DNA of 64,000 nt, from positions 31,100-95,099 of the forward strand of contig JAEUQE010000006.1 in the NCBI GenBank assembly GCA_016789785.1. The letters run 5' to 3'. Shown here one piece after another: positions 17,005 through 54,806 of the stretch. How positions within the stretch are numbered: position 1 is the first letter of the stretch; each line of letters starts with the position of its first letter. Origin of the DNA: Bryobacterales bacterium (lineage in GTDB: Bacteria > Acidobacteriota > Terriglobia > Bryobacterales > Bryobacteraceae). The notes beneath the pieces were generated by a model. It saw nothing but the letters and a program-made list of their open reading frames with translations. It had not been told where the DNA came from and did no database searches. Both the position numbers and the translations under genes were made by a program.

Positions 17005-17352
17005 TTAGCCAGGGCCGCTGGGGAAGAACGTCCGGACTAGCGGCTCGAACCACGAACGGTCCACGTCGGCACCGTACGACGACCAACCCTCGATCGCGGC
17101 CTTGATGCGAGCGGCCTCACCATCAGAGAACTCGAACTCTTTGACGGGTATGGACAAAGCCGGGTTCCAGACCGTTCGTTCCTGCCCACTGACCGTCTCG
17201 CGCTTTAACTGGATTGCTTCCGCTTCCTCTCGCGTCAATGCGATGGAGTCCTGGATTGCCCAGATCGCCCGGACGCCAGCCACGTCCGTCCGCTGCGCTC
17301 CCAGTAGTGCATGCAGGTTCAGTCGCTGGGTTTGATTGAGTGTAAGTTTCAT
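17005..17352 (-). CDS. Uncharacterised prophage protein (115 aa)
   Basis: Soluble, helical 115-aa protein starting MKLTLNQTQRLNLHALLGAQ, with an acidic middle and no membrane segment. It begins 10 nt after the end of the large fibre gene and is the last gene of the leftward phage operon. Similar short last-gene proteins accompany fibre genes in phages as assembly factors, but I recognise no family. An AT-rich regulatory gap follows. Confidence 0.55.
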   Translation of the reverse strand: MKLTLNQTQRLNLHALLGAQRTDVAGVRAIWAIQDSIALTREEAEAIQLKRETVSGQERTVWNPALSIPVKEFEFSDGEAARIKAAIEGWSSYGADVDRSWFEPLVRTFFPSGPG

Positions 17353-17362
17353 TCTCTTTCCT

Positions 17363-19660
17363 TTACGGGTTGGAATAGAGCAGGATGTAGCCCGCCGTGA
17401 CTCCGGCAGGGTTCTTCACTTTGATCACGCCAGACCATCCGGACGGATTCGTGGCGCCCATCAATTCCGCGAACCGGTAGCCGTTGCCATTGCTGCCCGC
17501 GATGATCAGTTCGCCGCCCGCCGTGACTTGCAGCAGCGTGTGATCAGCGAGGTTCGAGCCCGGACCGGCCACCCGGAAAGGCGACTCGCTGCTGTCCTTC
17601 GCCACGACCAGCATCGGGCCGCACGCGACTCCGGCCGCAACCGGCGATGCCTGATAGCCCCAGGTGCGTGCGTAGCCTTTCTTCGGATCGTTGCCTTGCT
17701 GGAGGCACGCGCCCCAAAGGTGGATATCGCCCGAGGTCCAGTTGTCGCCGTTCCCCGCATACTGCCGCACGACGATCCACAGTCCGGTCTGCCCGCCAGC
17801 CAGCGTTCCGGTGATCTTGAACCGCTGCCACGACGTCGTGAGGACAATGCTGGTTGGGCCGGCGAGGTATCCGGCGTAGGCGTTGTCCACCATGGCGATG
17901 GACACCTGCTTCGTTCCGGACGGGACCTTCGCCCAGATGTATAAGGTGTACTGCCCGCCTGAAACCAAGCCGGCGATCTGCTGCTGGATGACCGGCGTCG
18001 AAGTGCTCGCGGTTACCGTCTCGGCGGTCGTATTGCCGTCCGGAGCCGTGACGCTGTTGGCCGTGACCGAACAGGAGCCGCCGTTCTTGTCCCACGTGGC
18101 GACGCTGAAGTCCTCTGAGTACTTCGCCATATTCTCGAACGCGCCGCCGACCGTCTGGAAAGCGCCGCACTCAACGGACTGAAAGTGCGATTCGAGGTAT
18201 GCCCATAGGTTGTTGACGGCGACGTAGCCGAAGTTCGCGCCCGCGGAGCCGTCGCGCAGGACGACCGTGGTGGCCGTTGCGTTCGAGGTTGCGTCGCTGA
18301 TCTGGGCAGAGGTGTGGCTGTGCGAGGGCAGGTCGCCTGCCGCGATCGCCGAAACGGTCACCGCCGCGCCCGAGCTCGCCTGCTTCAGGAAGCCGGGACC
18401 GGTCGTGGAGAGATCCGCGCCGGTGCCGCCACGCGCGAGTGCGAGCGTGCCGGAGTTGATATCCGAGGCCGCGTGCGTGTGGGTCGCGTTCGCCTTGGCC
18501 GCACTAGTGCCGTCAACGAGCACGGAGTCAGTGGCGTTCCCCACGGCTCCCTGGAGTGCACCTCCGGAGTCGATGACGGCGGCGCGGGATGGATTCCATC
18601 CCAACCCCTTCGTCGGCCGCGCGGTCAGATCCGAGACCAGGTTCATCACGTCGCTTTCCGCGTGCGAGTGCGTCGGAACGGAGCCGAGCGCCACAGTGAC
18701 CGTGACCCGATCATTTCCCGAATCGTCCGCGAACGAGAGCGCCATGTTTGCGCCTTGGATCAGATTCAGCGCGCGCCGCGTGCCGACGACGGAGCCGCTG
18801 TTCTGGATCGTAAACGGCAACGATCCGGAGACAATGTCGCCAGCCACGTGGGTGTGGGCTGGCAGGTCGGCGGCGGATAGCGTCGTTCCGCCAGTGGCGC
18901 GCCCCTTGGCATCGACGGTGAGCTTGGTATAAGTGCCAGGCGTGACGCCAGACGACGCCACTGAGAGCACCCCTGCCGCAACAGCGAGGCCTCCTGTGGG
19001 ATCTATCTGGACGATGCCCTTGCTGGTGGTCGTGGCGTCCGGATACGAGAACGCGCCGAAGGTCTGCCCGGGCGCGAAGTCGATGATCGCATCCATGGCG
19101 ATGTGGTCGTTCGCGTTGAGCGCCATGCCTAGGTCGCCGGAGTTGTCGGCCTTGCGCCACTTCACCGCGCCGGTATTGGGTAGCCTGACCAGTCCGGTGC
19201 CAGCCTTGGTGCCGGATCCGAATTCCGCACCGTCCTGGAACGTCTTCACGCCGGTGACCGTCACCGCGCCGTCCTTCCGGACGTAGTTGCGCGCGACGGA
19301 GGTCCCCAGGTCGTTCTCGATCGCGAGCACCGCGGACTGGAGTGCGGTGATGAAGCCTGCGACCATGTTGGCCCGGACAGTAGCTCCGCTCGCGTGGCTG
19401 GCCGCCGTGGTTCCGAACGCACCACGCTGGCAACCGGTGAACTGCGATCCGCTCCGCGCCGTGTAGATGACGAGCTCGTCGTTGATGGAAAGCACGCCGT
19501 AGGCATCTGCGAACCCACCGGCAGTGGACTGGACGCTGATGGTCGAGTCGCCCGCGCCCACAGCGGACGTGGTTGTGGTTTCGAGCGGCTTGGCCGAGAA
19601 CGCATCGACCGGGCTGTACAGCGTGGCGGCAGTGTCGATTGCTGAGGGGAAACTACTCAT
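17363..19660 (-). CDS. Tail fibre-like protein with C-terminal carbohydrate-binding-like domain
   Basis: A 765-aa protein with the composition of a phage fibre: rich in Gly, Ala, Ser and Thr, with repeated motifs such as DLPAHTHVAGDIVSG and DLPSHSHTSAQISD at about 265-450, as in trimeric tail fibres. Around residues 520-640 is a beta-sandwich-like segment (NMAKYSEDFSVATWDKNGGS, later SWQRFKITGTLAGGQTGLWI) typical of carbohydrate-binding modules. It probably binds host surface glycans. I chose ATG 19660, which overlaps the upstream stop as ATGAGTAG, over a GTG at 19669. It follows the 1,179-aa gene with translational overlap, so the two may form one distal tail assembly. Confidence 0.75.
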   Translation of the reverse strand: MSSFPSAIDTAATLYSPVDAFSAKPLETTTTSAVGAGDSTISVQSTAGGFADAYGVLSINDELVIYTARSGSQFTGCQRGAFGTTAASHASGATVRANMVAGFITALQSAVLAIENDLGTSVARNYVRKDGAVTVTGVKTFQDGAEFGSGTKAGTGLVRLPNTGAVKWRKADNSGDLGMALNANDHIAMDAIIDFAPGQTFGAFSYPDATTTSKGIVQIDPTGGLAVAAGVLSVASSGVTPGTYTKLTVDAKGRATGGTTLSAADLPAHTHVAGDIVSGSLPFTIQNSGSVVGTRRALNLIQGANMALSFADDSGNDRVTVTVALGSVPTHSHAESDVMNLVSDLTARPTKGLGWNPSRAAVIDSGGALQGAVGNATDSVLVDGTSAAKANATHTHAASDINSGTLALARGGTGADLSTTGPGFLKQASSGAAVTVSAIAAGDLPSHSHTSAQISDATSNATATTVVLRDGSAGANFGYVAVNNLWAYLESHFQSVECGAFQTVGGAFENMAKYSEDFSVATWDKNGGSCSVTANSVTAPDGNTTAETVTASTSTPVIQQQIAGLVSGGQYTLYIWAKVPSGTKQVSIAMVDNAYAGYLAGPTSIVLTTSWQRFKITGTLAGGQTGLWIVVRQYAGNGDNWTSGDIHLWGACLQQGNDPKKGYARTWGYQASPVAAGVACGPMLVVAKDSSESPFRVAGPGSNLADHTLLQVTAGGELIIAGSNGNGYRFAELMGATNPSGWSGVIKVKNPAGVTAGYILLYSNP

Positions 19661-22600: not shown

Positions 22601-23192
22601 CGACAGGCAGCAGAGTGCCGCCAACATCAGTTGCCGGCTGCACGTTGCTGGTCAGTTGCGTCTCGAACCGGCACTCGAGGGGCGTGATCGTGTACCGTGT
22701 GTCGCGGAAGTAGATGTGGAGATAGTCGATGCCTTCGGCGGGTTCTTCACCGCTCAGATCGATTTCCACGCTGGCCGGAGTTTCGCTGCCGGAGACGACC
22801 GTGGCGTGATCGAGCAACCGCACTTCGTAGATGTCCTCCGGTACGATCCCCTTGCCGCAGACGAACGTCATGGCGTCCCAGGAGACGGAGGGGTACTTCG
22901 CGGCGTCCAAACGCATCGCGCCGTCGAGCGCATTGTCATACTCGATGTCGAATTCGAGTTTCAGGCCGGAGAGATCGGTCTTGGGAAGGTGCTTGCACCT
23001 GAGGTGATTGAAATAGTCGTAGGCGTTCCACCAGCCCAGGACCGCGAAATCATCCGGCGCCTGAAAGATGCCGGAAATGGACACACCTGTCTCGGTCCCG
23101 TCGTACATCGTGGTCGTCGCGCCGCGTCCGGTGAATCCCTGAGTCTGGAAGTTCCGACGCGGGTCGAAGATTTGGAGTGGTTCAGAAGGCAA
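19653..23192 (-). CDS. Very large tail-associated protein with glycoside-hydrolase-like C-terminal half
   Basis: 1,179 aa, starting with TTG at 23192 in a weak context. The N-terminal 450 residues are beta-rich, with repeated ligand-binding-like segments. The middle (about 600-670) holds a jelly-roll-like stretch (LRGAVAAGTHTVEI). From about 670 to 1,130 the sequence resembles a TIM-barrel glycosidase: HADVYMGVFWNNKRRR, SFAFSMECYNPP, PVILQFGETQYW, with several Trp and acidic residues. I cannot name the family or its catalytic pair. It lies between the fibre gene and the NACHT cargo, so it is probably a baseplate or fibre protein that binds or cleaves surface polysaccharide. Confidence 0.6.
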   Translation of the reverse strand: MPSEPLQIFDPRRNFQTQGFTGRGATTTMYDGTETGVSISGIFQAPDDFAVLGWWNAYDYFNHLRCKHLPKTDLSGLKLEFDIEYDNALDGAMRLDAAKYPSVSWDAMTFVCGKGIVPEDIYEVRLLDHATVVSGSETPASVEIDLSGEEPAEGIDYLHIYFRDTRYTITPLECRFETQLTSNVQPATDVGGTLLPVDLHVDDAAGFEVGDMAWIERTGANEELVLVLEVNEILGFIRARITMTHAADSYVTRRTQAKHAAQKAAALINTPGETVSGRFGPEQTAVIAATASGYTGGAKLTIEFKSAALPAGRYGKLGNLDRILVTSGHDGAGAQALDWSASGSTYRFNGGDDNTKYHITLDFTQPLTDKQSRAVPMNDCRKMYIVFAPRFEQAEGELEDGCFLTADVGPSDTIWPVDDSSKLSGGRYFIGSPFAEERVRLISVDSSTLITVERGYQSSTPRSWSAGVRMKKLSPQSGYASDVEWGCTLSNIQVTGDGSLKVGGGAPRIEESDARCTYTGYWEKYSYGSGWPSQWWSTGHARRCAPSSALDARKVSLRYSHTQQHDLYLGTFLNTDCGKIRISVDGDAPTTHDLFLSEYDGTTANIKLRGAVAAGTHTVEITALFEKHASSTGYYFYFDYLWPLVPVDVPDAPQAYSDVSLAIDFDTDHGYKKPPAWHLWQLQKLGFKGHADVYMGVFWNNKRRRVNATYPYATIAFTGTPSPGDVVSFSIGGTTINHAIGYGETLQHIVSHMRAAINGMFAGVWADDNFGTSTTLRVQSKAPSWTFTGLAVSAPNSVTLTLTNQMGTPGTEGDWEMIDSVSPVMTEGARRWIRDLAGQFQAAGIKASFAFSMECYNPPAEMRAKYLSYVAGVVSPGADVYLEIPSHQMHFGTRVRNYLKQMYKECADQIAAAGAPVILQFGETQYWYFDNQGEDPSGGMGFYDQQAIDDFAAAKGHQIWPFHANNDDPAGDPAHPYETADFLRDRIWAYCQDVISYVRSYHPTAVFECLWPLDANQGKPSPDPAYRRLLMHVNLPNEWKNSSYGIRYFRCEGFDYDVWQKNSSLMRQVISFGRSTLGRPAEECMFLSGLYGPPDPPMAQAYGMWLPLKLYSFCFWAFDQFCLNSRPVPLPIYSVSVSNAQYFKPRAARAIEAPIAQAWVPAASGALNQFRFNTSASNE

Positions 23193-23328
23193 AGGAATGT
23201 GATCGTCGAACGACAGTGAACTTGATCCGACTAAAGGTGCGCGATTAAGGGAGAACTGATCTTCCGTACATTCTCAAGTTGCGCGTGGTTACCGGCGAAA
23301 TCAGTCAGGTTGCCGAAACGCTGCATCG

Positions 23329-24294
23329 TCAAAGAAGACGGCATCGGTAGAAGCAAGTGCTTAAGACCTTGCTCAGAGGTATCGCACCCGTCGCAACCGT
23401 TTCCAGATGCTCCCGCTCCACTGCGACGATCGTGCGTCTATCGCGCAGAGCCGTTCGTATCTCCGACGCTGCATCTTTCGTAAGGTGAGCAGTCGTGATC
23501 ACAAATCCTCCCCGCAGCCCCTTGGTTTGCAGCTTCGACCCGAAATCCCGGATCATGGATGCATCCACCGCTTCCGAACGGTTCTTGCACTCGACCACAA
23601 ACGGGTCGCTCAAATTCCGCCAGAAACCTTCACCATCGTTGCTGAAGGCCAAGTCTATCTCCTCCGCCAAGGTACGAATGTTCCGACCTATGGTGCGCAG
23701 GCCGGGAATGCTTAGAAACATGTACTCGGCGAGGTTCTCCAGTGCGCGACCTTTGTTGGCGTTTGACTCTGCAGTCAAGGCCGCATCATAAAGCAACTTG
23801 AAGTTCCTCACGTCAAAATGCTCGACCGCCTCCATCGTGCCTTTGGTCACAACCGCAATGCGGACGCTTCCGTCCCTCAAATGCCCGAGAATCCAATCGT
23901 CCTCTACGCCTAAGCGCGACAGCACAGACGCTACCCGCCATCGAGTAACTCCGCCATGACTCTTCAACACCCGTGCGAGAACCTGGACACTCTGCTCCGA
24001 CTCCGACCGAAACGCTTCCACCATATTCAGTGTCCGAAGCACAAGTGGTTCGTCCCCGCACTCAAGCAGATCCAAGAGCAGTCTCGCGAGCTGCGGCGCA
24101 ACCGAGGAGCCCTCCAGCGTTCGGATCGCTTCCTCCAAGTCGCCGCTTCCGGACTCATCGGACTGCGACCACCAATGTACAAGGTCCCCCAGAATCTGGG
24201 TCCGCGCATCGAGCGGAACCCCAACCTCATCGGCCAGCAATCGGCACAATGCGGCGATGCGATCTCGGCGGATGCGTTCACCGACGGGCAGCAT
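23329..24294 (-). CDS. PD-(D/E)XK (Mrr-like) restriction endonuclease partner of the NACHT protein
   Basis: A 321-aa protein. Residues 1-170 are helical and repeat-like. Residues 178-300 form a restriction-endonuclease-like domain: a Glu in GRALENLAEYMF (about 186), Asp 214 in EEIDLAF, and ExK in VVECKNR (Glu 235, Lys 237), followed by a strand FVITTAHLT. This is the PD-(D/E)XK active-site pattern seen in Mrr-type and defence nucleases. The ATG at 24294 overlaps the end of the NACHT gene by 17 bp, so the two are translationally coupled. I infer that the NACHT protein senses infection and this protein is the DNA-cleaving effector. The pair sits between two tail genes and resembles no virion protein. 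Confidence 0.8.
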   Translation of the reverse strand: MLPVGERIRRDRIAALCRLLADEVGVPLDARTQILGDLVHWWSQSDESGSGDLEEAIRTLEGSSVAPQLARLLLDLLECGDEPLVLRTLNMVEAFRSESEQSVQVLARVLKSHGGVTRWRVASVLSRLGVEDDWILGHLRDGSVRIAVVTKGTMEAVEHFDVRNFKLLYDAALTAESNANKGRALENLAEYMFLSIPGLRTIGRNIRTLAEEIDLAFSNDGEGFWRNLSDPFVVECKNRSEAVDASMIRDFGSKLQTKGLRGGFVITTAHLTKDAASEIRTALRDRRTIVAVEREHLETVATGAIPLSKVLSTCFYRCRLL

Positions 24295-26086
24295 TCGCCA
24301 ATTCCTCCGTTATCTGTGCAACCAAACTCGCGCGCCCGTGGCCCTCCAGCCAGGCAAGAGCCAGCCGAACCACTTCGCCGTAGTAATCGTCGAAGAAGTG
24401 CTCTACGATGAACGCTCGGGCGTCGTTTGCATTCAACGAGGCGATGGCCCGAGCTGCAAAGTACTCCTGGAAAGATTTGTGTACGAAGGCGTAGTGTCCG
24501 GGATCAGACTCGACCAGGATTCCTGAACGCGCAACGAACATACCGAGCGCCCGAGTGACGTCAGACTCCGTCAACTTCCCTGCAGGAGCGCCGCGTTGCG
24601 CAAGCGCTATCGCCTCCTCGCGTGATACAACGACAACACGCTGCTTCAGCATGCCAAACGCGATAGCGCTCAGGACTGTCTCCATCGCGTAGTCACTCAA
24701 CGCGCTACCGAGCGTGTGAGACAGGCTGCGCGCCATATCCCAGGACGACAAGAGCGTCCGGGCTGCAACATCATAGATTTCGACCCGCCTGGCCGGAAGC
24801 CGAAAGCCCTGTCTATGCAGAAACGCCAGAACGGTCATCAGCATTGGATTGCCAGCGAGCGCCCGAATCTCAGGATTGCCCTGAACCATCTGGAGCAGTT
24901 CATTCGCCTGCGCCTGCGGCTCGGCGGAAAGCGAGAGATCGCGCGTTACTGCCGCAGACCAAAGCGAGGCAAACTGGCTGATCTGAGTGTCGGACCAAGG
25001 CGAGATCTCGTATGCAGGAAGACTATCGGAGAAGGTGCTCACGCCACTGTTTCTTGTCGCCACAACGACACGGAGCAGGGGTCGTCGCTGACAAAAGCCG
25101 ATGATTCCTCTGGTGACGGATTCCCGCATGCCTGGCGAATCGATCTCATCGAAGCCGTCCAACAACAGAACCGCTGTACCCGATCCCAGTGCCTCCTTAA
25201 TCACCGGCACGAATTTCGGGTCCATCCGTTCGCGCGCGAAGGCGTATACTAGCGATTCCACATCGCTGTCATCGCGAATCAACCCCTCGCGAGCGAATGA
25301 AAGGGGTACCAAAACCGGTACGGCCTCCATCGACCGGGCATAGGCGAGAGCGATTTGTTTCAGCAGAACCGTCTTGCCGCATCCCGGCGGTCCCGTTAGG
25401 ACCCATTGGCGAACCGAAGCTAAGACCTCTTGCCATGAGACCTGGCTCACCTTCGCCGATTTCTGATCGCCATACGGAACCAGCGAGGGATCCACAAAGA
25501 TTTCTTGGAGCCCAACCCCATGTGTCCCGGAGGTTCGGGCAAGCCCTGCGAATGAGATGGTTCCGTACAGCGAAGCGACATATGCACGGTAACTCTCCTC
25601 CACTGAATCGGCCTCTGAGGGCCACCGGGTCAGGAATCGTCTGGTCACCAGCGCCTCAAGATCTTCCTTGACTGCCGCCTCAAGTTCTCCGAGGGACCGA
25701 AATCGCGGTCGCCGCAGGTCACCGCCCTCGAACGCTTCAGCGCGATGTAGAAACGCCAGTTGCACATTGTCCGGCTCAATGCCGTCCTTGACGTAGATCA
25801 GGATGTCCTTGCCGGCCTCCCGCGCCTTTTGCAGCTCGAATTCCGTCACCGACACGTCGAGTTGCGGCGGCTTGTAGCCATAGCGTGACCCATACAATCC
25901 GAGGAAAATGTCACATTCCTCAACAGCACGTGCCAGTGATTCACTGACGGTCCGGTCGCTAACGCCTATGGCTTCTGCGTGGAGCGTTTCGAATTGCAAT
26001 TCGCTGATCGCTCGCGCGGCGGTCTGTCGCTCGCTCGCCAAATCTGAAAATGTGCTGCTGATGAAAACTTTGAGTCGTTTCTTCAT
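24278..26086 (-). CDS. DUF4062-NACHT STAND ATPase
   Basis: A 602-aa protein from ATG 26086. Residues 1-90 are a DUF4062 domain (KVFISSTFSDLASERQ, then EECDIFLGLYGSRYG), a TIR-like Rossmann fold common at the N-terminus of STAND proteins. Residues about 172-200 are the usual pre-NACHT linker. The NACHT ATPase has Walker A GPPGCGKT at 232-239 and Walker B VLLLDGFDEID at 306-316. The C-terminal 150 residues are a helical winged-helix-like region, with no long repeat sensor. Bacterial NACHT proteins of this kind are anti-phage sensors. I preferred ATG 26086 to a TTG at 26161 because DUF4062 domains begin at MKKRLKVFISS. It is first in a two-gene set with the nuclease gene. Confidence 0.85.
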   Translation of the reverse strand: MKKRLKVFISSTFSDLASERQTAARAISELQFETLHAEAIGVSDRTVSESLARAVEECDIFLGLYGSRYGYKPPQLDVSVTEFELQKAREAGKDILIYVKDGIEPDNVQLAFLHRAEAFEGGDLRRPRFRSLGELEAAVKEDLEALVTRRFLTRWPSEADSVEESYRAYVASLYGTISFAGLARTSGTHGVGLQEIFVDPSLVPYGDQKSAKVSQVSWQEVLASVRQWVLTGPPGCGKTVLLKQIALAYARSMEAVPVLVPLSFAREGLIRDDSDVESLVYAFARERMDPKFVPVIKEALGSGTAVLLLDGFDEIDSPGMRESVTRGIIGFCQRRPLLRVVVATRNSGVSTFSDSLPAYEISPWSDTQISQFASLWSAAVTRDLSLSAEPQAQANELLQMVQGNPEIRALAGNPMLMTVLAFLHRQGFRLPARRVEIYDVAARTLLSSWDMARSLSHTLGSALSDYAMETVLSAIAFGMLKQRVVVVSREEAIALAQRGAPAGKLTESDVTRALGMFVARSGILVESDPGHYAFVHKSFQEYFAARAIASLNANDARAFIVEHFFDDYYGEVVRLALAWLEGHGRASLVAQITEELANAARR

Positions 26087-26296
26087 TTCGGCTCGCGATG
26101 CCTCTTGGAACTTCCGTACTTCCGTTTGTACATCTAGGGACGGCCTGCAAGCAACGAGCAAGGGCCCCAGCTCCGGTGCTGGTTGGTCGCTCGCCGAGAG
26201 TGAAGGCCCGCCGAGGCCATCACTCGATAGGGTAGACGGCTAGCATTCATCATCGTGCTGAAGCGGAAAGACCCTCGGACCAGTCTCAAGACAGCC

Positions 26297-29200
26297 TCAA
26301 GTTTGGATCACCACGGTCAGATCGCTGCCCGGGTCGGGCGAGGCAACAGAGAGGATATCGAACGCAAGAGCATCGCCTTCGTGCAGGATCGGCGTGGGCC
26401 ATATGGTCGGACGCACGTTCTCGCCAGCAGCGTGGTCGTTTGCGAAGATCGCGTCGAAGGTCTGGTTGTCCGGGTCTGCGGCGAGCACCTGCACGTATTC
26501 CTCATTCGCGGTGCCAAGCCCTACGTGAACGAATTCGCCGACTTCGATTCCGAGACGGTTCGCGCCGTATGATGCGATCTGCACCGTCTGCGGCGATCCG
26601 CTCGCAGTGACCGCTTGCGCGAGCGCGATGCCGTAGTCGTTGTATGGTAGCCTTCGCGTCTCGGGTGTCCCGTAGCCGTCGTTGTTCACCAGGAAGTCGT
26701 AGGTGTTCTTGTACGCGGTGGGCAGCGCCTGGGCGATCCCCATGTACTCCAGCGGTTGCCACGTCGCACCGTCGTCGCGGCTGAACTTCACCAGATAGGC
26801 GCTCTGGCCGTCGCTCGTGCCCTGCTGGACATAGGCGAATACGCATCGGATCGAAGCTGCGTCGTGGACCTTCATCGGGATCGCCACGTTCTCCTGGGCA
26901 GAGAGAGGGCCCTGGATCTGGAACGTGTAGGCACCGCCCGAGCACGTTCGGTCGCCAGGCATGTACGGCTCATTGTGATGCGATAGCGGGAACACAGTGA
27001 ACGGACCGTAGCCGAAGTGGTTTGCCACGCCGACCAGCGCAGCCACGATGCAAGCGGATGGAAGCGTCGCCACGATCCTGGGCGGCAGCCCTGGCGTCCG
27101 GAAGAAGCCCCTCTTCACGGCCATCGTGAAGAGTTTCATGTCGAGCTTGTAGAACCGGATGCCGGCGAGATGCGGGCAGCGGAACGTTCCGAAGGTGGCG
27201 TAGCCCGGATCGACGCCTGGATAGGCGCGCTGGATCTGGAACGGGCCGGTCGAGACAACATCTCCCGTATCTCCAGGGCCAACGATCTGAGCGCACTCGT
27301 AGGAGCGCCGGCCGGAGTGGTTCGCGTCCGCTGCCTCGTCGTTGAACACGATGAAGTCGCCGACCCGGAACGCGTGTGACGTGTCCGGGTTCACGGCGCA
27401 GTTGACCGTCACTGGATCGGTGCTCGCGTCGATGCCGGTATCGAGGCTGGCCCACAGATCCGTGGCGAGTTCATCCACGTAGTACAGCCCCATGGCGATC
27501 TCGGTCGCGCCCGCGATGTTCTGGTTGCCGGCAGCGTCGGGTTGGATCTCAATGTCATCCACAGCGAACGAGCCATAATCCGTGAGCTTGGGAGTGCCGG
27601 TGACGATGCCAGGAACGCCCGTATCGTAAAAGATCTCGTCAGGCACCGGCGAGGCCTCCACATCCGCTGGCTTTGGGCCGTCGACTAAGTCGTACATCGA
27701 ATCCGTCGTGGTGCGCCCTTGGATGTCGATCGAGTAGTCCCGGTTGAGTTTCCACCCGGTGACCCGGAACTCCCCGGAGCCGTTCGGCATGTCGGTGTGG
27801 GCCATCGAGCAGACCATCCCCGGCTCTGTATTGAGCGCGAGTACTGTGGTCCGGAAAGAGATCAAGCGCGCGGCTTTCCATTCCGGTGCGCTGATCCCGC
27901 CCAACTCCTCGCGAAGCCGCGTGCTGATGGTCCGCGCCGCTTGCGACTTCGAGAACGTGCCGCATAGGTTCACCTGCGCCTTCAGGAACAGCGGGCCGGC
28001 ATCCGCGCCAATGCGTGTGGCGTAGTCGATGTCGTAAACCGCGACCGAGTTGTTGACGAACTGGTAATCCTGGTCCGCGAAGTTTGCCGTGAGGTGGTTG
28101 AAAGAGGGCTTCAGCGGAGCCAACTGGAGCGACTGGAACAGGATGTTGCCGGCGGTGAAAGCCTCCACTGTGCTGCTGTTCACGCGGATGCCGATCTTGA
28201 GCTTGCCGAAGGCGAACGTGTAGTAACCCAGGCAGTTCATCAACACTTCCTGGAGCCAGTCGCGGAGTGGCTTTTCCTCTTGGAGCACGCCGCGGAATTT
28301 GAACTGCGTTTCGCTGCCGGAACCCACCAGCTTGGTGACCGACTCGTTGCAAATCGAGGCTGCCGCGATCGTGGCGTCCACGTCGAACAGCGTCTCGGCG
28401 AGGTCCAACTGCTCAGTAGTGGCGCCCGCGCCCAATCGCAGGCCACGCGCGCGGAGCAGCATGTTGACAGCGATCCATACCGGGTTCGTCAGTGCGGGCC
28501 CGAACGTCCGGACGCCTGGCGACGTCCACACCCATCCGCTCATCCCCTGGAGCACGTTGGCGATCATGGCGTGGTCGCCTGGCTTCGACAGTTGCAGTCC
28601 CTTTGCGTCCGACCTGCGGATTACGATGAACGCGGTTCCGGCCGCGAAATTGTCCTTGTAGGTCGAGTTGCCGGAATAGACCTTCCGCCAGTCGCCGCCC
28701 GTGGTATTGCCGGATTGATCGAGCGAGAAGAAGTCCGTCGCACCGGCCGGATCGGTGCCGAGGCACTGGCGCAGGCCGAAGTTGTTCGTGGGATAGCCGT
28801 GATGCGCCTGGCCATCCAGCGTGCTGCCGACGAACGTCTCCGCGGTGCCGTCGCCGTCCAGGTCCTCGTAATGAGGAGCAGTGTAGGCGATGATCGGCCC
28901 TTCGCCGACGATCCCCAGTGCTTCGTAGAAATCGCTCTCGTCGCGGCCTGCCGCGATCTTGCAGTTCACCGGCATCTCGGCGTCGGTGTAGATCTCGGGC
29001 ACGATCTGGTCGTAGATCGAATCCGCGACAAGCGACGTGCTGGTGATGTTGGCCCGGTTGAAGCCCCACACGCCGGTCGAGTTGTCCTTGATCCGGACGC
29101 CCTGCGGTTCGGCAATGATGCCGCCGTAGTAACGCTTCATGTTGTGCGCGAGGCAGCCATTGGCGGTCTCGTAGCCCTTATCGCACTTCGTCGCGTCGGC

Positions 29201-30157: not shown

Positions 30158-30166
30158 GGAGAGGTG

Positions 30167-36193: not shown

Positions 36194-36393
36194 GTGGAAG
36201 ACGAGCGGAGGTCGCGAGTGCGCGAGTTACGGATTAGCTCATCTTGATCGGAACATCACCGGTTTGGAATATGAAGCTTGGGCGCAGCCCGTATTAATCG
36301 CCTCCCGGAGCTTTGTTCGGGATACCTGACGGATCCAACGAAAGTGCGCTGAGCGGTTTTCAGATCTCCAGGTGTGCGGAGTTCATCCGAAAC

Positions 36394-38397
36394 TCAGATC
36401 TCATTTAGCGAGGGCGTATCGACTTCCTCAAGGTGAAAATACGTTCCCCACACTTTGAGGACCCAGCAGGCCTTCTCGAAAAGATCTCGGTTGTCTCTCT
36501 TGACTATCTCGACAGGGTTCTCTCGCTGGTCCTTTGCTTGGTCTTGCCTGACCGCTTTTGAAAGCACGGCCAGGAGCACATCCCGAGTAAGCCGACAGGA
36601 ACGGCAGAGAACTGTAATTGGCAGGGTGGAGTACAGCGGCAAGCGATCTGGAAGAACCAGAGGAGCGACAGTGCTGCGAGCATCCTGCATCCCTCGACAA
36701 ACGGAGATAATGCGCTCCATATCGATGGCATAGTAAGGGTCTTCGCGAATCTCGGCGAAGTTGAAATTCAATATGGGTTTGATGGCGTCTGGCAAACGAT
36801 CGCGACGCGGGATGGTTGCTCCTGGAAGCAAAACCGGGACAAACGCGATATTCATCGTCAGCGCTTTCGCTATTTGGTCGGCTATCGCCTTGCCTCCTCG
36901 TCGCTTACGGTTCAGCGAAAGCAATCCGTCCCCGACTAATAAAAGGTACGTTGCACATTGTTCGGGCACGGTGTCTTGCCTAGCATCGACAGCGCCATAA
37001 CGAATCGTATGACTAAAGGCGATGTTGTCCCCAAGGGACTGTTCAAGCGTGTCACATATTCGTTCAATAACATGCCGATCCTCATTCCACAGTCCGGCGA
37101 CGAATGTAAGCGGCGCCTGTCTGGAGAACGACGCGCGACCGTGCATCGCAATGGCATCGAGTGGATTCGCCCTAAAACGAAACGCGCGTCGAGCGCGACG
37201 TATGAAAGCAAAATGCTGGGAAAGAATTTGCGCGGCCGACATTGCGAACACTTGACTTTTTGAAGGCTCTCCGCGGCCGTCAGTATCCCCCAAAGAATCT
37301 TGGATTGTCCGCCATTCTGAGGTGTTTAGCGCATCAATAGACACCAGAACACGTTCGATCTCATCGACCAAGTTTGGAAGGTTCGAATTATGTGCTTCAT
37401 CGCGCCGATCCCCGATGTAATGACACCAAGACTGTATTACGCTCTCAACCGACAACAGCTGATCGCTCTCTATCGCGAATGCATCCTGGATCGAACCGCT
37501 GTTTTCCGACATTCGATCAAGAAAATTAAGAATACGCAGGCCGGAGGCGGTAAGAACTCGCAATGGAGCGATCAAATCACCATCCAACTCAGGGATATGA
37601 AGGCCCATCCGAACTGTCCCTGAGGAACCTAGGATACTATTACAACGTTCAATTAGGGTGTTGATGTCACTTTCAAAGTGTGGATCTGGCCTCACAACCA
37701 TGAAGGGTCTATTGGCGAATGGGCAAAGGGATGGTGGTACATCATTTTCCGTCGGCGCCGTAGCGCCTGCCATCAGAACCGGTACTATTGGTATGCCGAC
37801 TTTAAGAGCGGTTTCGATTTCCACCCTTACCGGATCGTCTTTGTCAAACAGGCGGGGCGACTCAGACTGCACTGATTTGCCCAACCACCCTTTGCCAACC
37901 AGGACGACTAGCAACTCACTCTTGCCGACGAACTGTTCGAGAGTTGGCGTGAGCCTGGAGCCGAGTGGCATCGCGTCAACATCTCTAAAGACCGATCCCT
38001 CTCCGAATGCGCTTACCAAACGGTCGAGAATTCTTCCGGACGAATGGGTGTCATCTGCACGCCTATATGACATGAAAAGCTTGTAATGCCGATTGTCCGC
38101 CGCTACATAGGAACGAAAGCGGTCAACGGTGGGAGACTTTCCGGCCTGCGGAAGGCCCGGAAGTGATCGTGGGATCACAATAAAGTCTTCGGCTACAGCC
38201 ATTGCGATCATTAACGATGTAACTCGGTGGTGGCTACTGCCGATTTGCGAAGCTACCTGTGCAACTGATGGCGCATTCTCACCCCAGCAGCCGTAGTCAG
38301 AGTATCTACAGAATAGATCGGCGAGATTAGCCGTCTCTGAGCTATCAACGAGCGACGTGCTGCGCTTGGACGACGAACCCCGACGCTTTTTCGGCAT
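36394..38397 (-). CDS. Dual-TIR protein: one active-type and one degenerate TIR domain
   Basis: 667 aa. Residues 20-75 look like a helix-turn-helix (SVAQVASQIGSSHHRVTSL). Residues 104-255 are a bacterial TIR: FMSYRRADD, VFRDVDAMPLGSRL, then DDPVRVEIETAL, in which Glu 193 sits where the NAD-cleaving Glu is expected, then IPIVPVLMAGA. Residues 260-425 form a helical linker. Residues 430-575 repeat the fold (LTFVAGLWNEDRH, YLLLVGDGLL, FVPVLLPGATIP), but the aligned Glu is Gln 508, so this copy is probably inactive. No signal peptide. It follows the 164-aa gene by 55 nt. Visibly lower GC than the neighbouring phage genes suggests recent transfer. NADase-type immunity is inferred. Confidence 0.8.
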   Translation of the reverse strand: MPKKRRGSSSKRSTSLVDSSETANLADLFCRYSDYGCWGENAPSVAQVASQIGSSHHRVTSLMIAMAVAEDFIVIPRSLPGLPQAGKSPTVDRFRSYVAADNRHYKLFMSYRRADDTHSSGRILDRLVSAFGEGSVFRDVDAMPLGSRLTPTLEQFVGKSELLVVLVGKGWLGKSVQSESPRLFDKDDPVRVEIETALKVGIPIVPVLMAGATAPTENDVPPSLCPFANRPFMVVRPDPHFESDINTLIERCNSILGSSGTVRMGLHIPELDGDLIAPLRVLTASGLRILNFLDRMSENSGSIQDAFAIESDQLLSVESVIQSWCHYIGDRRDEAHNSNLPNLVDEIERVLVSIDALNTSEWRTIQDSLGDTDGRGEPSKSQVFAMSAAQILSQHFAFIRRARRAFRFRANPLDAIAMHGRASFSRQAPLTFVAGLWNEDRHVIERICDTLEQSLGDNIAFSHTIRYGAVDARQDTVPEQCATYLLLVGDGLLSLNRKRRGGKAIADQIAKALTMNIAFVPVLLPGATIPRRDRLPDAIKPILNFNFAEIREDPYYAIDMERIISVCRGMQDARSTVAPLVLPDRLPLYSTLPITVLCRSCRLTRDVLLAVLSKAVRQDQAKDQRENPVEIVKRDNRDLFEKACWVLKVWGTYFHLEEVDTPSLNEI

Positions 38398-38452
38398 GGC
38401 TCATTGTCGCAATCCGCGCGCGGACGATCGTCGTCCCGCAACACTGTGCATA

Positions 38453-38947
38453 CTACGGTTTGATGCCGGCGAGCGTTGCAAGTCCGTTTGCATAGGTTTC
38501 CAAATCGGCTCGGAGTGATTCCAGCTCTTGACGGAAGTTGTCGTGCTCCGGCCAGTTTCGCTCATGATCACCGGCGCTCACTTTCGTATCTTTGCGCGAC
38601 TCCCAGTCCGAGAGCGCGGGGTGCCAGCGGGACAAGAATGGGCGAATGCCGCGATTTAGCACTGTAATAGCAATACCCCCAACGGAAGCACTTGATGTTC
38701 CGATGTCTGGTCCCGCCGCTCTCAGAATTTGGCGTGTGGAGTCGAAAAGGCTGTGCAGGGAAGCTAATGCCTCCCGCATCGACCCCTCCGTAGCCGGAAG
38801 GGGCTGAACAGCGATTCGTGTTACGAGTTCGACGTAGAGCGCCCAAGCAGCGTTTCGCTCCTTAGGATCAGCGTTCCATTCTGCTTCGCCTACCCAGGGG
38901 ATCTTAATTTTGACGCTGGTTAACTTGGCCGGGTCTCGTCGTGGCAC
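38453..38947 (-). CDS. Uncharacterised partner of the dual-TIR protein (164 aa)
   Basis: 164 aa, helical. The middle has GGIAITVLNRGIRPFLSRWHP, and the end ESLRADLETYANGLATLAGI is a long helix. I do not recognise a named family. It is first in the two-gene cargo set, directly upstream of the TIR gene on the same strand, and both interrupt the virion gene order. Reasonable roles are sensor, adaptor or inhibitor of the TIR protein. It has lower GC than its phage neighbours. No membrane segment. Confidence 0.65.
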   Translation of the reverse strand: MPRRDPAKLTSVKIKIPWVGEAEWNADPKERNAAWALYVELVTRIAVQPLPATEGSMREALASLHSLFDSTRQILRAAGPDIGTSSASVGGIAITVLNRGIRPFLSRWHPALSDWESRKDTKVSAGDHERNWPEHDNFRQELESLRADLETYANGLATLAGIKP

Positions 38948-39045
38948 AATACCTCCTCAGACGATCATTGTAAACGTTCTCGCCAAGTTGGGTTAGCTCG
39001 TGAAGATAGAATCGTGCTGATTGAGAGACCTTGCCGTCGAATCGG

Positions 39046-39070
39046 GGGGAGCGCTCAGCGGTCTCTCCCC
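39046..39070. terminator. GC-rich hairpin between tail chaperone and TIR cargo
   Basis: Inverted repeat GGGGAG...CTCCCC with a small inner hairpin CGC-TCA-GCG, in the 168-bp gap between the chaperone extension and the TIR set. There is no clear U-tract, so termination is uncertain. It could insulate the cargo from late phage transcription. Confidence 0.25.
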
Positions 39071-39115
39071 TCAGGGCGTAGCATTGAACCTTCCGAACGC
39101 ATGCTACCCATGCTC

Positions 39116-39475
39116 CTAGCCGCGATTTCTCACTTCAGGCAGCTTCTCCCGATCCAACAGATCCCTCTCTCCAGCGATGATCAGCATTGCCTGAAACTCA
39201 TCGGCGGCTATCTCTTCGAGAGAGATGTTCACGCCGAGTTTGAGTGCCGCCATCAGTTCCAGCGCGCAGCGGATCACCAACCCGCGTTCCGAGGTCTGGG
39301 CGGCGTCGATCCTGTCCAGCGGGCAGTGGTCGCACCTGCCACCGCCATCCTCCGGCGAGTCCGGACATAGACTGGGGTCGCATAGTTCGTCCCGCCGCAT
39401 TGCCCAATGGACGAGGAACCGGAAGGACGGATTCTCCGGCCACTCGCCTATTGAGCATGCGGACTCGCTGGCGGA
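39116..39475 (-). CDS. Tail assembly chaperone T-type extension, made by -1 frameshift
   Basis: This frame continues the upstream chaperone after the -1 slip at 39475-39481. The open frame before the first ATG (39400) reads sensibly (GEWPENPSFRFLVHWAM), which would be unlikely if translation started at 39400. Residues of the extension include four Cys (CDPSLCP and CDHC), perhaps a zinc site, then a helical region. The predicted fusion is about 324 aa (205 + 119). In phages such as lambda and HK97 the short and long forms chaperone the tape measure. The next virion gene is the tape measure, as expected, but the TIR cargo now separates them. Confidence 0.75.
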   Translation of the reverse strand, partial: SASESACSIGEWPENPSFRFLVHWAMRRDELCDPSLCPDSPEDGGGRCDHCPLDRIDAAQTSERGLVIRCALELMAALKLGVNISLEEIAADEFQAMLIIAGERDLLDREKLPEVRNRG

Positions 39476-40089: not shown

Positions 40090-40101
40090 CGATGTTCCTT
40101 T

Positions 40102-41145: not shown

Positions 41146-41290
41146 CGGTCTTTACCTCCTGGGCGGTAGCCGGCGGATCGCACTGGTTCCAACCAGCGGC
41201 CATAAGTGGCACCAAATTCTCGGGCGTTGCTTCAACTTCCTTCGGCTCGCCCTCACCGAAGGGTGGGCGCATCCAAACACTCGATGGCAT
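41132..41290 (-). CDS. Small phage protein (52 aa) before the tail tube
   Basis: 52 aa from the ATG at 41290, which overlaps the end of the upstream gene. It reads SSVWMRPPFGEGEPKEVEATPENLVPLMAAGWNQC, a short pattern seen in many phages next to tail terminators and tail tube genes. The frame continues open far upstream only as antisense noise to another gene. Function unknown. Confidence 0.6.
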   Translation of the reverse strand: MPSSVWMRPPFGEGEPKEVEATPENLVPLMAAGWNQCDPPATAQEVKTDVDD

Positions 41291-41763
41291 CACTGGTCTC
41301 CCATCTCGGTAAATGAAAGTGGAACTTCGAAATAGTCGAGCGCCTCGGCATCGGTCTGCCGCTGAATCATTGGCAGGTCCATCGCATTGCACGCAGGATG
41401 GACAGTGGCGTACAGCATCTCTTGACCGGTCGATGCCGGAACGCCCTTGGTGATCAGCCGGAACAAACGGTAATAGGTGCTTGGCGCATCGCCGTTGAAT
41501 GTGTCTCGCGCCCTGAGGAACAACGTGATCTGGTGCTTCCACACGTCAACGGCGCCGAAGGATCCGGGCTGCGTGCCCTGCCACACCGTCATGATCGATG
41601 GCGAGGGCATGTTGTGAATCGCCTGCGCCAAGCTAACGTTCTTCGGGTACTGGTCGTGGTAGGCGTAGATCTTCTCGGGATCGCCACCCATCTCCTCGAC
41701 CAGGTCAGGGATGTCCCGCAGCATGGCGACCAGGTTGTTGATGATTTCGGAAGGGTCGATCAT
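41290..41763 (-). CDS. Tail terminator-like protein
   Basis: 157 aa starting IDPSEIINNLVAMLRDIPDLVEEMG, with the mixed alpha/beta pattern of small phage tail terminator or completion proteins (ITLFLRARD, STYYRLFRLI, LDYFEVPLSFTEMGD). It is directly before the 52-aa and tail tube genes, which fits a tail terminator. Its start is only 20 bp from the start of the divergent cargo gene at 41784, so any promoter between them must overlap that gene. Confidence 0.65.
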   Translation of the reverse strand: MIDPSEIINNLVAMLRDIPDLVEEMGGDPEKIYAYHDQYPKNVSLAQAIHNMPSPSIMTVWQGTQPGSFGAVDVWKHQITLFLRARDTFNGDAPSTYYRLFRLITKGVPASTGQEMLYATVHPACNAMDLPMIQRQTDAEALDYFEVPLSFTEMGDQ

Positions 41764-41783
41764 ACGGTATGCTTATTCGCTAA

Positions 41784-42719
41784 ATGGCAATGCCGCCGAT
41801 GCTCCGAAGCCAAGGGCCTGTTCGTCCGAACTTCTGCTTTGTGCTGATGCCTTTTAGCGCGGCCTTCGATAACGTGTTCGAAATAGTCCGGCACGCGGCG
41901 TCGGCCTGCGGGCTCAACTGCCTCCGGGCAGACAGCTTGACAACCTCAGGTCAAATAACAGAGGACATCTGGAATAGCATCCAAGATGCTCGGATTTTAA
42001 TCGCGGACCTCACAGGCAGTAATGCGAACGTTTTTTATGAGGTCGGAGTTGCGCACGCCCTCCGGAAGCCGGTCATACTACTTGTTCAAAGTGGCAGTTC
42101 GGTACCATTTGATCTGCGCGGCATCCGCTACATCAGCTACAGTCCCGAGTCCCTTAAGGACTTGGGAGCCACACTCCCCCGCTTCATCCGTAGCTGTCTT
42201 GAGATCGTGATTCCAAGGGTCGATGGTCTTGAGTTTGCGGGAACCGGGCCTCCCAATGTCAGACTTACGAGCATTCAGATTCCGGCTGTCGTGAGTGTTG
42301 GTCAACCCGTTCACATTGAAATTCGGGCTCGGAACTATGGTGGCCCTGCTGGCCAAGCCTACTTCTCTGTGTCGTTTCCGGTCGGATTTGACCGTGTTAA
42401 AGCCATTTGTTGTGACTGCCAGTTTCAAGCGGGCATAAAGAATGAAGAGTGGAGCAACGGTAGAGTCAAACTGCAGTATCCGATCGCGGAAGGCTTCAGC
42501 TATGGGGAGCCTTTCTGGCCTCCGTGCGTAGAGCGCTCCATGACCGTCGAGGTGCGGGCAACGACGCCCGGGCTTCACCAAGTCTACTTCAGCTCCTCCT
42601 GTCAAACCGATCCGTGGCCCTTCTCATACGACCCGACCCCTCTTGAGTCGCCGTTACGCGATCAGCGTGAAGAACCCGTGTACTGCGGTGTCGTTGAAGT
42701 TGTCTCTGCAGGCCGCTGA
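41784..42719 (+). CDS. 2-deoxyribosyltransferase/TIR-like protein with C-terminal beta-sandwich
   Basis: 311 aa on the strand opposite to all neighbours. Residues 15-142 form a Rossmann-like domain of the nucleoside 2-deoxyribosyltransferase superfamily: FCFVLMPFS, ILIADLTGSNANVFYEVGVAHAL, with Glu 86 as the likely catalytic residue, then VILLVQSG and FDLRGIRYI. Such domains occur in bacterial conflict systems as NAD- or nucleotide-cleaving effectors. Residues about 155-310 are beta-rich (IPAVVSVGQPVHIEIRARNYGG), like a CARDB/Ig-type sandwich, and could be the sensor. It fits between two phage genes with gaps of 20 and 4 bp. GC is lower than its neighbours. Defence function is inferred. Confidence 0.75.
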   Translation: MAMPPMLRSQGPVRPNFCFVLMPFSAAFDNVFEIVRHAASACGLNCLRADSLTTSGQITEDIWNSIQDARILIADLTGSNANVFYEVGVAHALRKPVILLVQSGSSVPFDLRGIRYISYSPESLKDLGATLPRFIRSCLEIVIPRVDGLEFAGTGPPNVRLTSIQIPAVVSVGQPVHIEIRARNYGGPAGQAYFSVSFPVGFDRVKAICCDCQFQAGIKNEEWSNGRVKLQYPIAEGFSYGEPFWPPCVERSMTVEVRATTPGLHQVYFSSSCQTDPWPFSYDPTPLESPLRDQREEPVYCGVVEVVSAGR

Positions 42720-42723
42720 GGCA

Positions 42724-43227
42724 TTATGTCTGCTCACCGCCCAACTGCCGCTCCAGCACCAAGCGCGGCGCAGCCTCGGTGAGCACACGGTTCGCCGCCT
42801 CGACCACGGCCTTTTCGTTTTTCGGAGAGAACACCATCCACGGTTGGATCTTGCTTGTAATCCATGCCTTCACCTTGTTCTCGACGCCGACCAACTTGCC
42901 GCGCTTGTTGGTGGTCGTCTTGATCGTGGAGCGACCCGTCACAGACGCTTTGGCTCGGTTGTCGCTGACCGTCCGGACCACGAAATTGCGGAGCATCTCA
43001 CCAGAGAGCACGAGGTTCCGCCGGTTGCCCTTGCCCATCTTCGTTTTCCAGATGGAGTACCGCTTCGTCAGCGGCTTGGCGGGACTATCATCTGGACCCT
43101 CGGCGACAGCCAGCCGGTTCTTCACCGCCGCGACGCCGACAGTGCCGACCTTGAACATCTGCTGCTGCCGGAAGTTGAGCCTGTCGAGCCGGATTTCCTT
43201 CTTAAAGAAGACTCGAACCGATGCCAT
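42724..43227 (-). CDS. Head-tail completion or minor virion protein
   Basis: 167 aa from the ATG at 43227 (ASVRVFFKKEIRLDRLNFRQQQMFKVG), basic and helical in the N-terminus and strand-rich later (GEMLRNFVVRTVSDNRAKASVTG). The layout resembles HK97 gp10-like tail completion proteins. It starts 7 nt after the upstream 100-aa gene. The longer frame back to 43503 is antisense-like noise, so I trimmed it. Its stop is 4 bp from the stop of the convergent cargo gene. Confidence 0.7.
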   Translation of the reverse strand: MASVRVFFKKEIRLDRLNFRQQQMFKVGTVGVAAVKNRLAVAEGPDDSPAKPLTKRYSIWKTKMGKGNRRNLVLSGEMLRNFVVRTVSDNRAKASVTGRSTIKTTTNKRGKLVGVENKVKAWITSKIQPWMVFSPKNEKAVVEAANRVLTEAAPRLVLERQLGGEQT

Positions 43228-43234
43228 TGGAACC

Positions 43235-43537
43235 TCACGAATGCTGGCGCAGACGAAGAACAAGGCCGCCGCCATGGTCAGCCTCGATGTCATAGACCTT
43301 GTAGACGACCGCGTCGACGGTGACCTCATCGCCACGCACCGGTGGCGCGGGCAGGTCAGCCTCGCGGCAGAACACGACGGCGTACACGCCAGGCGCGCTG
43401 CCTTCGGTCTCCTGCGTCGGGTTGAATATTGCGCGGACGGTAACTCCCCCGCCGGCCTCGGGCGTGTAGATGACATCACGCCCAAAGACCCGCAGACAGG
43501 CATCGTCCACTCGACCGACTGAATCGGTGAACGCCAT
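43235..43537 (-). CDS. Head-tail connector protein
   Basis: 100 aa (AFTDSVGRVDDACLRVFGRD, then VRAIFNPTQE, VTVDAVVYKVYDIEADHGGGLVLRLR). The beta-rich pattern and the length match small head-tail joining proteins of the lambda gpFII/HK97 gp9-like type. The gene is adjacent to the DUF2190 decoration gene (1-bp overlap) and the completion gene. Not firmly assigned to one family. Confidence 0.7.
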   Translation of the reverse strand: MAFTDSVGRVDDACLRVFGRDVIYTPEAGGGVTVRAIFNPTQETEGSAPGVYAVVFCREADLPAPPVRGDEVTVDAVVYKVYDIEADHGGGLVLRLRQHS

Positions 43538-43878: not shown

Positions 43879-43890
43879 TTCCGTTCTCCT

Positions 43891-45858: not shown

Positions 45859-45859
45859 G

Positions 45860-50691: not shown

Positions 50692-50714
50692 CGACTGCCA
50701 CCCGCATTCCTTCC

Positions 50715-50748
50715 AACCGCCGCCGGGTTCAACGATCCGGCGGCGGTT
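50715..50748. terminator. Strong bidirectional hairpin after DUF3489 gene
   Basis: Perfect 12-bp stem AACCGCCGCCGG/CCGGCGGCGGTT with a 10-nt loop. It lies between the ends of two convergent genes (DUF3489, and the leftward small gene whose stop falls in the loop). The plus strand then has a weak T-rich run (TTCTGCTTT). Probably a terminator for both directions. Confidence 0.65.
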
Positions 50749-51450: not shown

Positions 51451-51472
51451 AAGACTGGTTACCTTTCCTGGG

Positions 51473-52714: not shown

Positions 52715-52718
52715 AGGA

Positions 52719-54269: not shown

Positions 54270-54455
54270 TGGCCACCCGTTCGCGCACGTTTGGCCCACG
54301 TTGCGCCCGGTCGTGGCGGGTTGGCTTGTCTTACCAGGCTGGGGTAGCGGCGGCCCACGGCGCGCCGGGGTGACCACCGACCACCTCTTTTTTCGGCTGA
54401 CGCTGGCGAAATTGGGCAATCGTTCCACGCGCCGGAGCCGATCGCCCGGAAGTAC

Positions 54456-54806
54456 CTATGAGGCCACAGCAACCAGACAGTCCGCGACGACCTGCATGAA
54501 GACTCCGCGCGTCGTTACTGGTTGGCCGTCATCGTCGCGCCCATTGACTTGGCGATGCTTCCAGCACCGATTTCCGCTGTCGAGTTTCTGCAGGAAGCTG
54601 TAGCGAGTACCGGCTCGGGCGCTAGTCTCGACCGGTGTGGTCCCGTCCTCCTGACCCAGCCAAACGGCCTTCAGATGGCCCTTCCGTCCATAGGACGGCT
54701 TCCAGAATCCTGCGGCCACCATCTTCTGAGCGGCTTCGAGTGATCGCCAGCCCAGACAACGCCCGTCAGCGGCGTAGAGCGGGATCTGTTTGTGGTTGGA
54801 AGACAC
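54456..54806 (-). CDS. Uncharacterised protein (116 aa), first gene of the phage operon
   Basis: 116 aa (SSNHKQIPLYAADGRCLGWRSLEAAQKMVAAGFWKPSYGRKGHLKAVWL). The IPLYAADGRCLGWRSLEAAQ part looks like a conserved domain with GRKGHLKAVWL, but I have no name for it. It lies upstream of the two methyltransferase genes. It may be a regulator or an unrelated gene from the host. The frame is clean, with no membrane segment. Confidence 0.55.
   Translation of the reverse strand: MSSNHKQIPLYAADGRCLGWRSLEAAQKMVAAGFWKPSYGRKGHLKAVWLGQEDGTTPVETSARAGTRYSFLQKLDSGNRCWKHRQVNGRDDDGQPVTTRGVFMQVVADCLVAVAS

Follow-up and report, generated by a model that had tools for sequence, protein, structure and literature searches.

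Antiviral hotspots of P2/P4-type prophages were described by Rousset et al. (2022; PMC9122126) as high-turnover loci of 1-5 kb that hold diverse anti-phage systems; each element has one such locus, which in P2 lies between the replication gene and the portal gene. The moron Tab of Pseudomonas phage JBD26 is a prophage defence gene flanked by the terminase genes of the late operon, and its product, a single small protein, blocks tail assembly (PMC10884400). Here, these systems are compared with a tailed temperate phage whose late module lies in a 64,000-nucleotide stretch of a Bryobacterales genome, probably that of a soil bacterium (GenBank assembly GCA_016789785.1, contig JAEUQE010000006.1, positions 31,100 to 95,099), referred to as the window, in which three accessory gene cassettes occupy separate junctions between late genes. 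The phage family of the window shares with the P2/P4 hotspots the high-turnover locus between two conserved phage genes, but it has at least five variable junctions in one late module, several of them within tail genes. The likeness to Tab is the defence gene inside a late operon, whereas the window has multi-gene effector cassettes, which belong to different families and occupy different junctions. Both morons and prophage defence hotspots confined to a single site are thus already known, and what is new is a matter of degree, namely several slots in one structural operon with almost complete turnover of the cargo. In a literature search, limited for subscription papers, no report was found that deals with several defence slots within a single late operon or with such slots in prophages of Acidobacteriota. 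It is considered probable (roughly 70%) that several junctions of this intact late module serve as swap-in slots for accessory cassettes, many of them of immune type, which would presumably protect the lysogen.

An intact late module and the empty sites of its near-twin

The late module was read on the minus strand from 54806 down to 17005. Profile matches gave, in order, two ParB_N/N6_N4 methylases, a TerS-like protein, TerL (gpA), a lambda-type portal, a capsid-protease fusion and a cement protein, followed by a weak completion-like match, the major tail protein (MTP), two genes at the chaperone position and the tape measure protein (TMP), and then by DUF2460, gp80, gp77, a J-like protein, a baseplate/TIM-barrel-like protein and a fibre. 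The normal order of virion genes claimed in a preliminary description of the window was borne out by these matches, and the late open reading frames (ORFs) are full length in comparison with relatives.

The closest relative found was a prophage in the Bryobacterales metagenome-assembled genome (MAG) SJ149 (JADLBD010000200.1), referred to as the twin. Among the 19 late proteins from TerL to position 17005, 13 are 81-96% identical between window and twin and six are 55-77% identical (cement 96, fibre 93, J-like 92, MTP 92, portal 89, capsid 85, TerL 81 and tape measure 55%). By nucleotide alignment, 3126, 2953 and 976 bp of the window (cassettes 1, 2 and 3, respectively) stand against 23, 17 and 9 bp of the twin, these lengths being taken from the alignment ends and precise to a few bases. 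All three cassettes are clean insertions at gene boundaries relative to the twin, and their G+C contents (Table 1) lie below the 0.613-0.627 of the five late genes measured; the insertions are therefore regarded as more than chance. With their absence from a close relative and their differing base composition, the cassettes show features by which morons are recognised.

The preliminary description had also placed non-virion, immune-like genes at three junctions. These genes proved to be accessory, and one neighbour was corrected: the late gene adjoining cassette 3 is ORF 41290-41763, whose ATG is the exact point where homology to the twin resumes. ORF 41132-41542, which overlaps it in a different frame, was rejected as the late gene beside this cassette. 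For the completion-like ORF on the other side (42724-43503), two mapped relatives match from residue 93 and others from residue 1, and its true start may lie about 92 codons later than listed, as judged from these alignments.

Putative effectors of the cassettes

In the immune-type cassettes the Glu of DUF4062, the Glu of TIR, the Walker motifs of NACHT, the ECK motif and Glu86 of the NDT-type domain are retained, and an immune function is suggested by these domains and catalytic-position residues.

In cassette 1 (Table 1), the genes of the Mrr-type nuclease and the DUF4062-NACHT protein overlap by 17 bp. Walker A and Walker B were found in the NACHT NTPase, as is the case for bacterial NACHT (NLR-related) immune proteins, and the ECK motif is present in the nuclease. 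Two relatives of the DUF4062-NACHT protein were found with 46-47% identity across 96% of its length; no relative of the NACHT or TIR proteins was confirmed in viral contigs by a search that was sensitive to close relatives only. Glu107 of the DUF4062 domain aligns with a Glu of the DUF4062 TIR-like domain of KpSwz (match 1.1e-4), which stands at chain position 82 and is E97 provided that the chain begins at residue 16. With a DUF4062 domain and a Glu at the matching place, the protein is a candidate member of the Swarozyc-type NADases (DUF4062 TIR-like), which were described in a preprint (PMC13174449). KpSwz is described there with a portal-binding winged-helix part, whereas in the window protein DUF4062 is followed by a NACHT ATPase, and an Mrr-nuclease gene adjoins. 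The order DUF4062-NACHT is reported in the same preprint for human TEP1, NWD1, NWD2 and NPHP3 (PMC13174449). Upon infection, the NACHT ATPase would act as the sensor and oligomerise, and its oligomerisation would lead to NAD+ hydrolysis by the DUF4062 domain and/or to cleavage of DNA by the Mrr nuclease.

In cassette 2, the Pfam TIR_2 match of the dual-TIR protein is marginal (4e-4, below the cut-off). The TIR duplication was detected by self-alignment with a score of 130, which was reached in 0 of 200 shuffles (shuffle maximum 59). The first TIR matches the SARM1 profile at 2.4e-11 with Glu193 aligned to the SARM1 catalytic Glu, and the second has Gln508 at the catalytic position, so that a catalytic Glu is predicted for the first TIR only. 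The protein shares the profile and the aligned Glu with SARM1-type TIR NADases and differs from them by the second, Gln-bearing TIR on the same chain. The predicted structure (mean pLDDT 44) was usable only for the first TIR, and the best relatives cover only about one-fifth of the protein; for the 164-aa protein, no family was found in profile scans. The catalytic TIR would deplete NAD+, and the pseudo-TIR and/or the 164-aa partner may control it.

In cassette 3, the protein was matched by Nuc_deoxyrib_tr (9e-5, below the cut-off), the PADLOC "Effector" TIR model (1.8e-9) and phrog_3634 (1.4e-24), and Glu86 is invariant among the 22 aligned sequences of the NDT-type domain (homologue P0051, one of the 22, was omitted from alignment A2). 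Both the superfamily fold and the conserved Glu of NDT/DNPH1/TIR proteins are present. A Foldseek search against the PDB gave mostly low-TM matches to beta domains and glycoside hydrolases, and the N-terminal domain was placed by re-examination with VIA-align. From DNPH1 and MilB N-glycosidases and from TIR domains the protein differs by its fused C-terminal all-beta domain. The NDT/TIR-type domain would attack NAD+ or a nucleotide once the all-beta domain meets its trigger. By itself, the NDT/TIR-like domain is common in virus contigs, a relative being encoded in 154 of 182 candidate stretches (80 kept, L224-L303), and these relatives match mainly residues 1-170 of the window protein.

Table 1. 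Features of the window and of two related loci (L172, L175; own numbering). Lengths of proteins are in amino acids.
Feature	Position	Strand	Basis and remarks
Cassette 1, J-like gene / baseplate-like gene	23175..26300	-	Twin alignment; G+C 0.577
DUF4062-NACHT protein, 627 aa	24278..26161	-	Pfam DUF4062 5.8e-20, NACHT 2e-8
Mrr-type (PD-(D/E)xK) nuclease, 321 aa	23329..24294	-	Mrr_cat 8.8e-9
Cassette 2, chaperone-position gene (39116-39400) / tape measure	36185..39137	-	Twin alignment; G+C 0.537
Dual-TIR protein, 667 aa	36394..38397	-	Self-alignment, SARM1 profile match
164-aa protein, candidate partner of the TIR protein	38453..38947	-	No family match
Cassette 3, completion-like gene / ORF 41290-41763	41764..42739	+	Twin alignment; G+C 0.553
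NDT/DNPH1/TIR-superfamily protein, 311 aa	41784..42719	+	Superfamily domain at about residues 14-141, all-beta domain at the C-terminus
Prophage late module with intact ORFs	17005..54806	-	ORF list, profile matches, comparison with relatives
157-aa late gene lying downstream of cassette 3 (revised gene model)	41290..41763	-	Twin alignment
gp77/J junction	30158..30162		5 bp in window, 1318-bp insert in twin
tRNA-Ala(GGC), likely integration site of the phage family	55199..55274	-	Tandem-prophage contig, relatives
Class-1 DISARM operon drmD-drmMI-drmA-drmB-drmC	228..13685	+	All five genes in order
Duplicated tape-measure start, chaperone/TMP junction	L172 10137-10236; L175 5432-5526		Repeat comparison

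Filling, cargo and movement across the phage family

Related loci (197, most of them fragments) were collected by four queries, with the best 80 kept from viral-contig lists, and searched with 29 window proteins; the near relatives in the genome collection are mostly MAGs of Bryobacterales or other Acidobacteriota. The preliminary description had proposed that the junctions be compared in related prophages, and had named the same genes always at the same sites as the outcome against it. This outcome was not observed. In the relatives, the junctions are empty or filled, mostly with different genes and in some cases with known defence families; the Mrr, NACHT, TIR and 164-aa genes were matched in 0 of the 197 loci, and the NDT protein gave partial matches in five.

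By raw gaps, the chaperone/TMP junction is filled in 34 of 91 loci, J/baseplate in 10 of 13 and completion/ORF 41290-41763 in 1 of 99. After near-duplicates and incomplete ends were removed, and with a gap more than 200 bp above the low-percentile gap recorded as filled, the corresponding numbers of distinct loci are 28/69, 7/8 and 1/78, loci whose flanking genes were unmatched to their ends being left out (chaperone/TMP 3, J/baseplate 4, completion 6 and TerL/portal 100). The five junctions with more distinct loci than chaperone/TMP were filled in 5 of 427 cases in sum (TerS/TerL 0/86, completion 1/78, g41132/MTP 1/87, MTP/g39448 3/98 and g39448/g39116 0/78). Filling is thus concentrated at certain junctions (chaperone/TMP against this sum, Fisher p 6e-22, a guide only because the loci are related). 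Raw gaps vary at other junctions as well: 19 of 125 exceed 500 bp at TerL/portal, 19 of 80 exceed 500 bp at TMP/DUF2460, and 8 of 14 exceed 250 bp at gp77/J. Under the 200-bp rule, TMP/DUF2460 is filled in 40 of 62 loci, about 24 of which share a shorter, recurring gap of 263-470 bp, possibly occupied by a regular gene; for portal/capsid the figure is 7 of 13, with gaps of no more than 111-152 bp.

Small loci with high cargo turnover between two conserved phage genes, i.e. hotspots, were found at chaperone/TMP and J/baseplate. Four or more of the nine junctions could be assessed in 87 relatives: no filled slot was recorded in 35, one in 35, two in 16 and three in 1, so at least two junctions are filled together in 17. 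These counts are lower bounds because the loci are fragments; contigs were merged only where known to be one record. The preliminary description was therefore right that three cargo loci in one operon are unusual, but filling recurs at two of the three junctions, which are hotspots, and three filled slots are rare yet part of a family pattern.

The cargo of the nine junctions comprises 131 ORFs (≥100 aa) in 93 clusters. Among the best 25 of 63 families matched by the cluster representatives are a Cap4 nuclease, an ABC-3C set (DUF3732, MC3, CTD7), a protein kinase, HTH, peptidase M78, HicB-like antitoxin (2) and TIR_2 (1), and PADLOC labels (best 25 of 91 families) include LmuA/LmuB, RmrA/RmrT and PD-T4-6. 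The RmrA/RmrT labels denote RosmerTA and the LmuA/LmuB labels Lamassu. Families were then mapped on 49 records, which correspond to 50 of 55 chosen loci (loci from whole MAGs were left out). Strong PADLOC matches, lying between TerL and portal or immediately ahead of the portal gene, were recorded for RmrA in two (L013, L050), for LmuB-type ATPases in three (L042, together with DUF3732; L079; and L177, in which TerL falls outside the locus) and for the PD-T4-6 kinase in one (L031); among the records searched, known defence families were found at TerL/portal only. No TIR_2 was found in these 49 records, and the single TIR_2 representative presumably comes from a record outside them. At chaperone/TMP, L172 carries a 680-aa DUF7948/SBBP beta-propeller protein (10581-12620), which is also present in L175.

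Exchange of cassettes by recombination in the flanking late genes fits two pairs of relatives, because the cassette blocks are more alike than the neighbouring genes: the chaperone/TMP cassette and TMP are 92% identical between L172 and L175 against 83-84% in the upstream late genes, and the portal-side system and portal are 93% identical between L079 and L177 against 76% further on. A completion-junction cassette is present in L172 and not in L175. Four further pairs are near-identical contigs and uninformative on exchange. Of the 34 filled chaperone/TMP loci, two (L172 and L175; Table 1) have a second copy of the TMP start ahead of the cassette (81-85 bp, 98% identical), and a shorter copy is visible in L187; the duplication is possibly a trace of cassette entry. 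No direct repeats were found around the three cassettes of the window. Cassettes would thus be gained and lost through recombination in the conserved late genes at both sides.

Prophage boundaries, competing explanations and meaning

The late module starts 393 bp from the tRNA-Ala(GGC). An 85.6-kb viral contig (IMGVR_UViG_3300048503_000180; L219-L223) contains the same tRNA-Ala with an 87.5% identical flank and a phage of the family with its integrase at 57.0 kb. From about 60.0 kb it has another, partial copy of this tRNA, after which another family phage begins. A single tRNA-Ala thus carries a tandem of two family phages, spaced about 59 kb apart, which supports this tRNA as the integration site of the family. 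The window holds no second tRNA-Ala copy and hence one att copy within its 64 kb. In relatives mapped (nearly) end to end (G003, G004, G011, G013, G015, G018 and the twin), the integrase is encoded past the late-gene end, and the corresponding prophage end in the window would fall left of a complete class-1 DISARM operon, which has drmD, drmMI and the drmABC core and converges on the late-module end. The DISARM genes themselves are ordinary and in order; unusual is their place beside the late module, possibly on the prophage, and the operon lies either inside the prophage or adjoining it. In 19 relative records, DrmA had no match in 18 and a marginal one (8e-4) in the other.

The late-end/integrase interval holds a helicase, a type IIG restriction-methylase and a UvrD/GajB-like gene in G018, and SNF2-type helicases, not necessarily defence genes, in G004 and the twin. 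In the relative IMGVR_UViG_3300032893_003192, a helicase and a type IIG restriction-methylase lie between late genes and integrases (L202 7885-15357), and a UvrD/GajB-like gene has a neighbour matching an HNH-nuclease model (L203 4-3740). Between DISARM and the late module of the window are two convergent genes (13708-16521; 386 and 555 aa) without Pfam or PADLOC match, and for ORF 14854-16521 no solved-structure relative was found either. At the module head, two adjacent ParB_N + N6_N4 methylase fusion genes (51473-54428) are each present in 60 loci, most packaging-end relatives. A single 655-aa protein at 43891-45858 combines major capsid and head-maturation protease, with about 40% identity to the corresponding protein of Rhodobacter capsulatus phages.

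With the late-gene junctions as swap-in slots, the cassettes would be expressed and triggered in the lysogen, and their activities would act chiefly there, shielding the host of the prophage against other phages. Several results weigh against this reading. Cassette 3 does not stand at a hotspot, since its junction is filled in only one distinct relative of the 78 and is not a recurrent site. L013 and L050 form one 85% block, RosmerTA cassette included, without visible exchange. Consensus scans for promoters and terminators of the three cassettes were at or below shuffle level (promoters of the host group may differ from the type scanned), and as no excess over shuffles was seen, separate cassette expression in the lysogen has no support from such signals. 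The PADLOC models RmrA, LmuB and PD-T4-6 also give weak matches in 11-14 of the 14 control genomes; strong matches alone were therefore counted. Finally, 20 cargo proteins scanned singly (9 J/baseplate, 1 completion, 10 chaperone/TMP) were mixed: 8 had no family at E 0.01, three had sub-cut-off matches only, several are non-immune, and the families comprise nucleotidyltransferase, UPF0489, HNH, DUF4238, DnaJ, pentapeptide, outer-membrane barrel, metallo-hydrolase and STAND-type ATPase. The slot cargo is not purely immune.

A wider form of this reading can be advanced only tentatively. The family would spread an immune arsenal through its virion operon by at least five slots (TerL/portal, chaperone/TMP, TMP/DUF2460, gp77/J and J/baseplate) and by the late-end/integrase interval, which possibly holds a whole DISARM, the cassettes being swapped by structural-gene recombination. 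Place and trigger may be linked, because the genes flanking the slots encode portal, tape measure and tail tip, proteins that immune sensors often detect.

General moron slots, which would accept any gene useful to lysogen or phage so that the immune-like families are partly coincidence or have other roles, are an unlikely explanation, though the outer-membrane barrel, DnaJ, pentapeptide repeats, metallo-hydrolase, nucleotidyltransferase and many proteins without family in the relatives' cargo speak for them; all three window cassettes encode immune-type effectors that retain catalytic-position residues, and recognised defence families occur in the TerL/portal gap of several relatives. Improbable is a decayed prophage turned defence island, the remnant of which the host retains for its immune genes. 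The adjoining DISARM operon, together with the fact that no integrase or early gene was seen inside the window, would agree with it, but the late ORFs are full length and the integrase of relatives lies far past the late end, at a position that is outside the window here. The cryptic prophage colonised by defence genes that the preliminary description had considered is thus not supported as far as the late module goes. Cargo serving the late programme in virion, packaging or lysis is very improbable: cassettes 1 and 2 share the strand of the late genes, which would permit co-transcription, but the cassettes are missing from the twin, most relatives have different genes or none, and cassette 3 runs in the opposite direction. 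A chimeric contig is likewise very improbable, for although the window is a metagenome-type record from a contig of 95,099 bp, the three insertions are separate and at gene boundaries, and the same junctions are filled in relatives from other samples.

Prophage defence hotspots are a known route to new immune systems. The slots of this family can be recognised, even on short metagenome contigs, from the distance between conserved genes, so candidates can be harvested from them (93 cargo clusters, many without recognised family), and the window itself offers unusual enzymes, namely a catalytic TIR with a pseudo-TIR, DUF4062 with NACHT in the order of human TEP1/NWD1, and an NDT-type domain with an all-beta domain. 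The question of how a late operon keeps working with immune genes in its middle is thereby made testable.

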